Origin: a virus
Length of the DNA: 34,240 nucleotides
Virus record (IMG/VR): IMGVR_UViG_3300023116_000157
Span: 1-34,240 of that record
Strand: one strand, 5' to 3'
Shown in pieces: positions 3,323 to 25,900 of the stretch. The notes below the pieces were generated by a model, which saw nothing but the letters and a program-made list of their open reading frames with translations, was not told the DNA's origin and did no database searches. The position numbers and the translations under genes are program-made. How positions within the stretch are numbered: the first letter of the stretch is position 1; every line of letters begins with the position of its first letter.

Positions 3323-4633
3323 TTAGCTAATGGTTGCGTTTGCTTCGACGTTACCGACCACCTGAAGGTTGCCAGATGCGTCCAGTTTCATCTTGTTTGT
3401 GCCGCCTGTGGCGAAATAAAGGGAGCCGCCGCTTTCGGTTATTGTCCAGCCGTTGAGTTCTAGGGCAACGCCAGAGGCAAGCTGTAGTTCTTCATCAGAG
3501 GCTGACCACGTTAGTTTTTGCGTGGTGCCTGTGTCCTCGTAGAAGCTGATGTCGCCGTTTTCAGAGGCGTTAAATATGTTCCCTGTTCCACCACCATGAG
3601 TGATGCCAAAAGATGTGGCTCCTTGGTCATCGTCATTATCAATGTCAATCCGCAGACCCTGCTTTACGTTAATAAAATTATTACCCGTTGTGCCTGTGAA
3701 ATTAATGCTGGCGTTATTAGTTTCTAATGTCAGCCCATCGCTGGTCAAAGTACCCGTGATGTCTACGCCTGTGCTGGTGGTTTCTAGCTTTGTTCCGTTG
3801 TTGTGATAGAGACGAACATAAGAGCCAGACACACCACGAAAATAGTTTGCTCCAGAAGTGTCCTCTAAAACAATATCGGTTGCACCTTGAATTAACAAAT
3901 TGCCTGTGCCGTTATCTTTGATGACGCTATTGCTACCATCATGATATATCTCTAGGTCATTCCCAGCGCCGAAGATGGCTTTACCATTATCTGCAAAGTT
4001 TAGGCTTTCCGCACTAGCGTCCCATGTTAGTTTTGCCGTGGTGCCTGTGTCCTCGTAGAAGCTGATGTCGCCTGTGGATAGACCAACAGAAAACCTAGAA
4101 AGATTATCAGCGTCACGCTTAATATTAAAAACAGATGCGCCAACTTGCAGTCTTGCATCGTCTTGTGCCGCACCATCTATATCTTCTAGAACCAATTTTG
4201 GTGAATTGCTGCTTATTGTAGCATCACCATCCACAGTCAGCCCATCGCTGGTCAAAGTACCCGTGATGTCTACGCCTGTGCTGGTGGTGGCGAGTTTGAC
4301 TGCGTTGTTGTAGTAAAGATTTACTTCCTCTCGCCCTACGGCTTGCAGCATTACATCACCGTCAGAATTTACCAACTCAATCCTACCAGTTGTACCGCCA
4401 ACTAATTTTAATGGGCCTGCACCTGTGTCAGCTATTACAGATGCAATTTCACCGTAAGTAGATGAAGTGTCATGATATACCTCTAGGTCAGACCCTGCGC
4501 CGAAGATGGCTTTGTCGTTGTCGCCGAAGGATAAGTCATTTGAGATGGTTGCATTACCGTCGATCTTATCAATAGCGTCATTGATCTTGGTTCTGACCGA
4601 TGCAAGGCTTTCGCCATTGTTAAAAGTCGCCAT
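3323..4633 (-). CDS. Repetitive tail fibre protein
   Basis: 436 residues, built from short beta-rich units: KAIFGAG[SN]DLE[VI]YHD occurs twice, DISFYEDTGTTxKLTW twice and TSTGVDITGTLTSDGLT twice, interspersed with GNATIS and NKMKLDASGNLQVVGNVEANATIS. These units are widespread in marine phage fibres and probably form a trimeric beta-helical shaft. The N-terminus (LASVRTKINDAIDKIDG) is a short helical adaptor also known from other fibre proteins. There is no catalytic motif. The repeats are conserved at DNA level (see repeat entry), so recombination between units is possible. GAGGGG precedes the start. Confidence 0.75.
   Translation of the reverse strand: MATFNNGESLASVRTKINDAIDKIDGNATISNDLSFGDNDKAIFGAGSDLEVYHDTSSTYGEIASVIADTGAGPLKLVGGTTGRIELVNSDGDVMLQAVGREEVNLYYNNAVKLATTSTGVDITGTLTSDGLTVDGDATISSNSPKLVLEDIDGAAQDDARLQVGASVFNIKRDADNLSRFSVGLSTGDISFYEDTGTTAKLTWDASAESLNFADNGKAIFGAGNDLEIYHDGSNSVIKDNGTGNLLIQGATDIVLEDTSGANYFRGVSGSYVRLYHNNGTKLETTSTGVDITGTLTSDGLTLETNNASINFTGTTGNNFINVKQGLRIDIDNDDDQGATSFGITHGGGTGNIFNASENGDISFYEDTGTTQKLTWSASDEELQLASGVALELNGWTITESGGSLYFATGGTNKMKLDASGNLQVVGNVEANATIS
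3521..4287. repeat. Long exact direct repeats inside the fibre gene
   Basis: Two DNA segments recur in direct orientation. A 52-bp segment is identical at 3729-3780 and 4236-4287 (encoding the VDITGTLTSDGLT unit). A 36-bp segment is identical at 3521-3556 and 4037-4072 (encoding SFYEDTGTT). A third, imperfect pair lies at about 3943-3983 and 4475-4515. Perfect synonymous conservation suggests recent duplication or gene conversion rather than protein-level selection alone. Confidence 0.85.
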
Positions 4634-20855: not shown

Positions 20856-21578
20856 TTAGCGCAGCCTCGCTGTGGCTAGGGCGAGGCGCATGCCTTCCTG
20901 CAATTTTTTCTTGAATATTGCGCGGCCATACATTTGCATACGCTCGCCAAAACGCAGGCGAGGGCGATAGCGCATCGATGTACTATGAAAGTTCAGCACC
21001 TTTTTAATGCGACCGCTCTTGTACTTCTGATAAACACCAGCCTGCTTGCCTGTAGTATTTGGCACGAAGAACTGTTTTTTACCTTTATTCGGTCTGCCAA
21101 ATGTTTTGCTACGCTGTTGCGGATCGCGCGCCACACGCATAGCCGATAACATCTGACTTCGAAACCCAGGCGACATATTGCCATTCTTATCTAATCGTGT
21201 GCCAGCTGTTGGCGTAATATGCTTAAGTATTCCTGCATAAGGCAAGTTAGCTTCAAATGCCTTCTCAAATCCTGACTGGGGTCTTACACCTCCATCTTCC
21301 TGCACCTCAAGGTAATGCTTACCTCTCTGCATATCTCTACGCCGAATAGTCACTCTGTTCTCGTATTTGCGTGCAGCTTTGAAATAAAAAGCCTTTAATG
21401 TGAAGTCTGCAGGTCTATCAAAGATCTTCCGCATGTCCCGCTTATTACGTGCAATTAAGTTCTTCGCCGTATTGTTTAAAGCTAGCTGCTGAGCATAAGG
21501 CATTTGCCTTGCCACCATATTGCTCATCTTCTCATTGACAAGCTTTGTATTAGCGTTGAACTTAAATGCTATGGGCAT
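20856..21578 (-). CDS. Basic phage protein, possibly virion morphogenesis
   Basis: 240 residues, very rich in Lys and Arg. The N-terminal RQMPYAQQLALNNTAKNLIARNKRDMRKIFDRPADFTLKAFYFKAA, then the central NMSPGFRSQMLSAMR and KKQFFVPNTTGKQAGVYQKY, and a final RPRLRFGERMQMYGRAIFKKKLQEGM follow a pattern I know from unnamed proteins near head genes in proteobacterial phages, some labelled minor tail Z-like. It is the first gene of the late leftward unit, directly behind the terminator/leader, and has a strong ribosome site (CGGAGGTG). No enzyme motif is seen; function unknown. Confidence 0.7.
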   Translation of the reverse strand: MPIAFKFNANTKLVNEKMSNMVARQMPYAQQLALNNTAKNLIARNKRDMRKIFDRPADFTLKAFYFKAARKYENRVTIRRRDMQRGKHYLEVQEDGGVRPQSGFEKAFEANLPYAGILKHITPTAGTRLDKNGNMSPGFRSQMLSAMRVARDPQQRSKTFGRPNKGKKQFFVPNTTGKQAGVYQKYKSGRIKKVLNFHSTSMRYRPRLRFGERMQMYGRAIFKKKLQEGMRLALATARLR

Positions 21579-21600
21579 AAAGCACCTCCGTATAATTTAA

Positions 21601-21609
21601 ATTATCACA
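21601..21609 (-). promoter_or_regulatory. Possible extended -10 promoter for late genes
   Basis: Between the terminator and the 240-aa gene the minus strand reads TGTGATAAT, an extended -10-like element (GATAAT at 21601-21606) without a good -35. It would start transcription only about 15-20 bases before the ribosome site. It is an alternative to read-through of the terminator. Confidence 0.3.
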
Positions 21610-21620
21610 CATGCCCTAAT

Positions 21621-21652
21621 AAAAAACCCCCACCGGTTTGCGCCGGCAGGGG
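21621..21652 (-). terminator. Rho-independent terminator
   Basis: Minus strand: CCCC, an unpaired TG, CCGG, loop CGCAAA, CCGG, T, GGGG, followed by further G and six T. It lies after the last early leftward gene (21760) and before the first late gene (21578), so it marks the border of early and late transcription. Confidence 0.85.
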
Positions 21653-21706
21653 AGGACATGAGGGCTAGGGATGGCCCTGCAGAGAGAGGAGTATGAAGCA
21701 ATATCC
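21621..21706 (-). ncRNA. Late-operon leader or small RNA ending at a terminator
   Basis: A transcript from the promoter at 21713-21741 would start near 21706 and end at the terminator, about 86 nt, with no reading frame of interest. It contains GCAGGG (21675-21680) able to pair with CCCTGC (21646-21651), which is part of the left arm of the terminator, so two mutually exclusive foldings are possible. Between them lies CCATCCCTAGCCC, complementary (one mismatch) to the structured RNA at 29181-29193. It may be a free small RNA or the attenuated leader of the late genes, as with lambda pR' and tR'. Confidence 0.5.
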
Positions 21707-21712
21707 ATGCTG

Positions 21713-21741
21713 TATATACTCTATCACAATATATATAGCAA
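21713..21741 (-). promoter_or_regulatory. Sigma-70-like promoter before the late leader
   Basis: Minus strand TTGCTA (21736-21741), 17-bp spacer, TATATA (21713-21718). The spacing is optimal and both hexamers are fair matches. It lies in the gap after the 53-aa gene and points at the terminator and the late genes. Confidence 0.55.
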
Positions 21742-21759: not shown

Positions 21760-21921
21760 CTAGATCTTGCCTTGCTCCAACTCATACTTACGCTGCAAAA
21801 TCATAGCGCGTTCTTCATCTGTCCAGTCTGGTAAATCAACCTGCAAAACTTTACGCCGATTTGCAAAACCATATAGCTCCTCCAACGAAGTAATTGATTT
21901 TAATTTCTGCTCAAAGGTCAT
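21760..21921 (-). CDS. 53-aa protein, last gene of the early leftward operon
   Basis: MTFEQKLKSITSLEELYGFA at the start, then NRRKVLQVDLPDWTDEERAM and a helical end MILQRKYELEQGKI. The frame is supported by AGGAG eight bases before the ATG, by no alternative frame, and by amphipathic helical composition. No family recognised. It lies 97 bp after the primase-helicase gene, separated by the GGACA repeat cluster, and ends 19 bp before the -35 of the late promoter. It could be a small regulator, but nothing in the sequence proves that. Confidence 0.7.
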   Translation of the reverse strand: MTFEQKLKSITSLEELYGFANRRKVLQVDLPDWTDEERAMILQRKYELEQGKI

Positions 21922-21936
21922 AGACAAAACTCCTGC

Positions 21937-22032
21937 TTGGACATTTGGACAATCCTAGGGGATTTGTCCTGTCTGTCCAAAGTATGCAATTTAGGACAAG
22001 TCATGTCCAAACTGTGTCCTAACTTGTCCAAG
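21937..22032. repeat. Cluster of GGACA/TGTCC repeats (iteron-like)
   Basis: Within 96 bp there are eight copies of the GGACA core: TTGGACA (21937, 21945), TTTGTCC (21963), TGTCCAAA (21974), TTAGGACAAG (21991), TGTCCAAA (22004), GTGTCCTAA (22014) and CTTGTCCAAG (22023), in both orientations. Several pair as inverted repeats, e.g. 21991-21998 with 22004-22011. The cluster overlaps the 3' end of the primase-helicase gene and fills the gap behind it. It is a candidate replication origin or operator. Confidence 0.7.
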
Positions 22033-25690: not shown

Positions 25691-25900
25691 TTACTCTTCC
25701 ATTACTTCCGTAATTACTGCCTCAAGATTTATCCATTCAGTCATGGCTATTAGTGTTTTTATGCGGTAATCTTTATCAACACCGCGTGCAAGAGCATAAA
25801 CAGTAGGATAGGAAATCCCTGTCGCTCTCTCCACCTCTTTTAAGTTTTTACCCGCAAGCCTCTCAGGCAGCTCGTCAGGTGCATAAAGTCTCAATCTCAT
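25691..25900 (-). CDS. Small HTH DNA-binding protein
   Basis: 69 residues. NLKEVERATGISYPTVYALARGVDKDYRIKTLIAMTEWI is a clean XRE/Cro-like helix-turn-helix with recognition helix around SYPTVYALARG. It has no oligomerisation domain beyond the short C-terminus, so it resembles Cro-type or phage ner-type regulators. Its ATG shares one base with the stop of dCMP deaminase, so it is co-translated with nucleotide enzymes. It may repress the divergent early promoters near 28000-28133; this is inferred. Confidence 0.78.
   Translation of the reverse strand: MRLRLYAPDELPERLAGKNLKEVERATGISYPTVYALARGVDKDYRIKTLIAMTEWINLEAVITEVMEE

Follow-up and report, generated by a model that had tools for sequence, protein, structure and literature searches.

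What is the short promoter-terminator unit that lies at the boundary between the early and the late genes of this phage: a device that holds back the late operon, or the gene of an RNA with a role of its own? The window, by which we mean the whole stretch of DNA analysed, is a viral record of 34,240 bases whose minus strand carries most of the genes. The early minus-strand genes include SSB, exonuclease VIII, RusA, dCMP deaminase, thymidylate synthase and primase-helicase, followed by a gene for a 53-aa protein, and the structural genes (minor tail protein, small and large terminase, portal, capsid and tail) run from 21578 downwards. A promoter-like site, a short leader and a terminator sit between the 53-aa gene, whose product gave no match in a family search, and the first late gene. 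Among cultured phages, the relatives of the window belong to the CRP group of Roseobacter phages; their maps are circular, and the late genes likewise continue across the map ends. The approximately 26 kb of late genes that, according to an earlier note on this DNA, may be under the control of this site is correct if the map of the window is circular as well (21.5 kb to the window end plus 4.3 kb from the other end), and does not hold otherwise. The locus comprises the following features:

21760..21921, minus strand: conserved 53-aa gene at the end of the early operon, directly upstream of the RNA unit (49 loci found through its alignment)
21718..21726, minus strand: extended -10 of the RNA promoter, TGATAGAGT (TGnTAnnnT in the window and eight other lineages)
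21621..21711, minus strand: candidate small RNA of about 86-91 nt, from a predicted 5' end to the U run
21693..21700, minus strand: conserved TGCTNCAT motif in the 5' part of the RNA (four clades, one variable position)
21679..21691, minus strand: CU-rich stretch CTCCTCTCTCTGC, anti-Shine-Dalgarno-like and predicted to be unpaired
21661..21678, minus strand: hairpin 2, AGGGC-CATCCCTA-GCCCT, with UCCCUA exposed (stem covariation, loop kept)
21651..21656, minus strand: TCCTCC entering the terminator stem, mostly paired in the predicted fold
21621..21652, minus strand: rho-independent terminator, 10 bp and U6 (pattern scan and folding)
21599..21609, minus strand: candidate late promoter with extended -10 TGTGATAATTT between the terminator and the first late gene; no recognisable -35
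20856..21578, minus strand: first late gene (minor tail protein, phrog_1924), ATG at 21578

The window contains further elements of note. A dense array of GGACA/TGTCC in direct and inverted order (21947-22030, minus strand), situated in the gap that separates the end of primase from the 53-aa gene and strongly conserved in L004-L010 and L013, is a possible operator, set of replication iterons or middle promoter, and a 69-aa helix-turn-helix protein with a weak PHROG regulator match is encoded in the early operon (25691-25900, minus strand) as a candidate regulator. An early gene on the plus strand is followed, right behind its stop codon, by a second structured element (29255-29170, either strand; L217, about 3640-3760); it has a long outer stem and an inner hairpin that shows CUCCUCCC when read on the minus strand and GGGAGGAG on the plus strand, and is kept in the L004 phage.

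The promoter that the earlier note had read as TTGCTA-17-TATATA is present on the minus strand (21741-21736, 17 nt, 21718-21713), but this pair of hexamers is weak on its own, with 8 of 12 matches, under the cut-off of a promoter scan that returned 45 sites at that cut-off against 39.6 expected by chance. A promoter before the leader is nevertheless well supported by sequence comparison, though perhaps with other hexamers than these, since the relatives keep an extended -10 there: 9 of 11 units have TGnTAnnnT at a distance of 9-15 nt ahead of the leader, against a background of 1-8% for each, while L005 lacks it and has TTTACA-18-AATAAT, and the promoter-like site of L126 reads TTGCAA-17-TACTAT. 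The terminator, CCCCTGCCGG-CGCAAA-CCGGTGGGGG followed by TTTTTT, with 8 G-C among its 10 bp, was earlier described as a good one, and no other terminator-like site in the scanned part comes near it in strength. The length of 86 nt given for the leader (21706-21621) is likewise accurate, but already contains the terminator that had been placed behind it.

To gather relatives we queried with three proteins (minor tail, primase and 53-aa) as well as with the terminator pattern. The unit is common to nine other phage lineages, eight of which carry TGnTAnnnT like the window and the ninth TTTACA-18-AATAAT, and in these a leader of 50-80 nt is followed by a terminator (unconfirmed in L150, which has a promoter-like site and CUCCC and no clear U run). 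Units at the same boundary were found in the window, L004, L005-L010, L013/L014, L153/L159, L160-L162, L178, L182 and CRP-406; no such unit stands directly 5' of the gene in L147-L149, L157 and L163-L165. The RNA is conserved in sequence in L004, L005-L010 and L013/L014, and the design alone is shared by L153, L160-L162, L178, L182 and CRP-406. The leaders outside the first four clades are not alignable by eye; a covariance model built from these clades detects the L160/L161 units (26 bits, E about 1e-3). No Rfam family scored above threshold for this RNA, blastn against sequenced phage isolates returned terminator-like scraps for the window and nothing for L005, and no prophage turned up in genomes carrying the minor tail gene. 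An origin of the RNA from the host was rejected, as the motif/terminator pattern gave 3 hits in 84,980 species genomes, none of them alphaproteobacterial. The pattern hits L215, L221/L223, L222 and L225 look like chance.

The most constant property of the leaders is a C-rich motif complementary to Shine-Dalgarno sequences. CUCCC is found in 10 of 10 leaders compared to 0-3.5% of equally long stretches taken from the same strand of the respective locus, fractions whose product is not a probability, the lineages being related. In the window the only CUCCC of the leader (21654-21650) overlaps TCCTCC, abuts the terminator and is mostly paired with the terminator arm, and the motifs exposed in the predicted fold are CUCCUC and AUCCCUA. 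CUCC/UCCC is predicted to be unpaired in the window, L004, L005, L013, CRP-406, L178, L182, L126 and L153 (some copies in L004 and L005 being paired) and about half paired in L160; L150 was left out of this folding. Moreover, the UCCC loop of hairpin 2 is kept across the four alignable clades while the stem letters change with compensation (22 of 24 pairs), a value reached by 0 of 200,000 shuffles for a hairpin that was picked after the sequences had been seen. Since the motif occurs in a hairpin loop, a single strand or a multibranch loop depending on the unit, a function in base pairing fits better than a protein-specific hairpin.

Similar units also exist away from the late operon. A homologue in L126, a phage unrelated to the window, stands alone next to an integrase gene with the flanking genes on the opposite strand; it scores 36 bits with the covariance model (E 4e-6), part of which reflects selection, L126 having been fetched via the terminator pattern. 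Its source contig of 47 kb carries integrase, ThyX-like and primase-like genes (named by eye from translations). Likewise, CRP-811, CRP-821, CRP-823 and CRP-831 contain, between SSB and primase and on the strand opposite to both, a unit of TTGACA...TATAAC, 96-102 nt and a terminator, with UUCCUCCCC exposed:

L019 6790-6900, L020 5700-5808, L021 5577-5685, L022 6260-6369: stand-alone RNA genes of the CRP-8xx roseophages, with a covarying stem

These RNAs are antisense to the primase leader and may control primase in this way, so that their C-rich motif could have another reason. A further hairpin-terminator in CRP-406 (L018, about 6533, minus strand), which carries UCUCCC in the loop and is preceded by CUCCC, lies on the strand opposite to the adjoining early genes.

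We favour the interpretation that the unit is the gene of a trans-acting phage small RNA of the anti-Shine-Dalgarno type, to which we assign a probability of roughly 55%, because the motif is the part retained, in structural contexts that differ, and because comparable units occur by themselves; a conserved leader motif together with RNAs outside late operons argues for a small RNA gene instead of a pure attenuator. What speaks against it is that nearly every lineage has the unit ahead of the late operon, a position for which a gene standing on its own would have no need. Host RNA polymerase would start from the extended -10 promoter near 21711-21706 and stop at 21621, yielding an RNA of 86-91 nt that has a hairpin or two in its 5' part, C-rich anti-Shine-Dalgarno motifs in exposed positions, and the terminator hairpin with a U tail. 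Through CUCC/UCCCUA this RNA would pair in trans with ribosome-binding sites of phage or host mRNAs and lower their translation, while its terminator would also part the early from the late operon; in the window's clade the late genes could start from the extended -10 of 21609-21599 and receive any read-through in addition. Sequence comparison shows that the layout, the motif and hairpin 2 are conserved and that similar units exist elsewhere; we infer the production, stability and timing of the RNA as well as its pairing with Shine-Dalgarno sequences.

As to the mRNAs concerned, the start of the primase gene is the best predicted target by combined rank in the window, L004 and L005 clades and a weak one in L013, and the TGCTNCAT motif is complementary to the primase start region in just three of the four clades. 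The prediction fails in L153, L160, L161, L178 and CRP-406, and primase mRNA was rejected as a conserved target; since it fails outside the window's clade, no target is claimed here. Masking in cis of the late gene's own Shine-Dalgarno sequence was rejected as well, L182 having no clear one.

The main rival to a small RNA is late read-through, and both may hold. As attenuation or antitermination of the late operon, resembling lambda pR'-tR'/Q or put, it would have late transcription start 5' of the terminator, past which the polymerase would be carried either by a phage factor or by the leader RNA itself, the short RNA being a mere aborted product. We regard this as unlikely, albeit to be taken seriously. 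Of the lambda-like control suggested earlier, the layout stands, as even very diverged relatives have a pR'-tR'-like arrangement at this gene boundary; the proposed fold is not supported. GCAGGG and CCCTGC, proposed to form a fold excluding the terminator, are indeed present in the window, but the best fold that keeps this pairing reaches -18.2 kcal/mol compared to -31.1 kcal/mol without constraint, a cost of about 13 kcal/mol. Conservation of the alternative stem had been named as a check, and in the three relatives comparable for it (L004, L005 and L013) no 5-nt complement of the terminator arm occurs upstream. A classical attenuator built on this alternative fold, whose pairing is confined to the window and 13 kcal/mol worse, was rejected, as was a general antiterminator formed by the C-rich motif and a G-rich terminator arm, which, judged by eye, misfits the terminators of CRP-406 and L178. 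No antitermination family of PHROG or Pfam was matched among the scanned early proteins, although one of an unrecognised type is possible.

The stretch behind the terminator differs between lineages. The weak extra -10 mentioned in the earlier note is real, for TGnTAnnnT is kept at the same offset, 13 nt past the U run, in the window, L004, L005 and L013, where 41-44 nt separate the terminator from the start codon; in this clade late transcripts probably start, at least in part, 3' of the terminator, which speaks against antitermination. In L153, L160, L178 and L182, on the other hand, only 15-16 nt lie between U run and start codon, too few for a promoter and without TGnTAnnnT, and the U runs of L160 and L153 are interrupted. 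These features favour antitermination, and the short gap makes it probable that this class relies on terminator read-through or antitermination. Antitermination leaves the conservation of the anti-Shine-Dalgarno motif and the stand-alone units unexplained.

A combination, in which the short RNA acts in trans and read-through, regulated or leaky, lets its promoter supply the late operon too, would account for motif conservation and the 15-16-nt class together, and has a precedent in IsrK of Gifsy-1 (PMC4825925). The window's clade, however, seems to own a separate late promoter, and we consider the combination distinctly improbable. Least probable is an ordinary terminator at the early operon boundary with a chance promoter-like sequence and a functionless RNA: terminators are common at operon ends, TTGCTA-17-TATATA is weak alone and the whole-leader fold has a z-score of only -1.6, but the conservation of the motif, the covariation of the stem and the conservation of the extended -10 speak against it.

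Returning to the small RNA, a bolder and at present doubtful proposal is that these units form an undescribed family of anti-Shine-Dalgarno RNAs in marine roseophages, serving as a translational early-to-late switch that masks the sites of ribosome binding on replication-gene or host mRNAs, with a promoter that also feeds the late operon by controlled read-through. To our knowledge no such phage RNA has been described, and a limited literature search, which is weak evidence, found none. Marine phages have few known small RNAs, and such a family, if real, would represent a new phage means of re-programming translation where replication genes give way to structural ones, in parallel to a well-studied class of host small RNAs. 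Cultured relatives with such units (CRP-406, CRP-811 and others on Roseobacter strains) make this testable at once.

Among known systems, phage lambda controls its late genes by pR'-tR' and protein Q. The present unit resembles it in having a promoter, a short RNA and a terminator 5' of the late genes, and differs in that no relative of Q was found, in its anti-Shine-Dalgarno motifs and, in the window's clade, in a conserved -10 after the terminator. StxS of Shiga phage arises from the late promoter region and is similar as a phage small RNA with the order promoter, RNA, terminator before late genes. A review table lists it as trans-acting (PMC12197685). IsrK of Gifsy-1 is a short RNA that ends at a terminator, read-through giving a longer mRNA, and has a role linked to antitermination (PMC4825925). 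It shares the short-RNA-plus-terminator layout or double role, whereas host group, sequence and position are different and no antQ-like gene was seen in the window phage. In the alphaproteobacterial RNAs ar14 (RF02344, NfeR1) and cuckoo/CcsR, CCUCCUCCC anti-Shine-Dalgarno motifs lie in unpaired regions and the stems are variable (PMC10746234; PMC3927594). The RNA described here is phage-encoded and has shorter motifs (CUCCC, AUCCCUA), CCUCCUCCC being found only in the L005 clade, which also has CCUCCC, and in L126; it is not a series of hairpins that all show CCUCCUCCC in their loops. The window RNA gave no match to RF02344 and L005 scored 17.0 bits against a gathering threshold of 58.8, so that the phage RNA is ar14-like and not a member. 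With variable stems round a conserved anti-Shine-Dalgarno motif and an intrinsic terminator, both of which are present here, ar14/cuckoo is the closest class.
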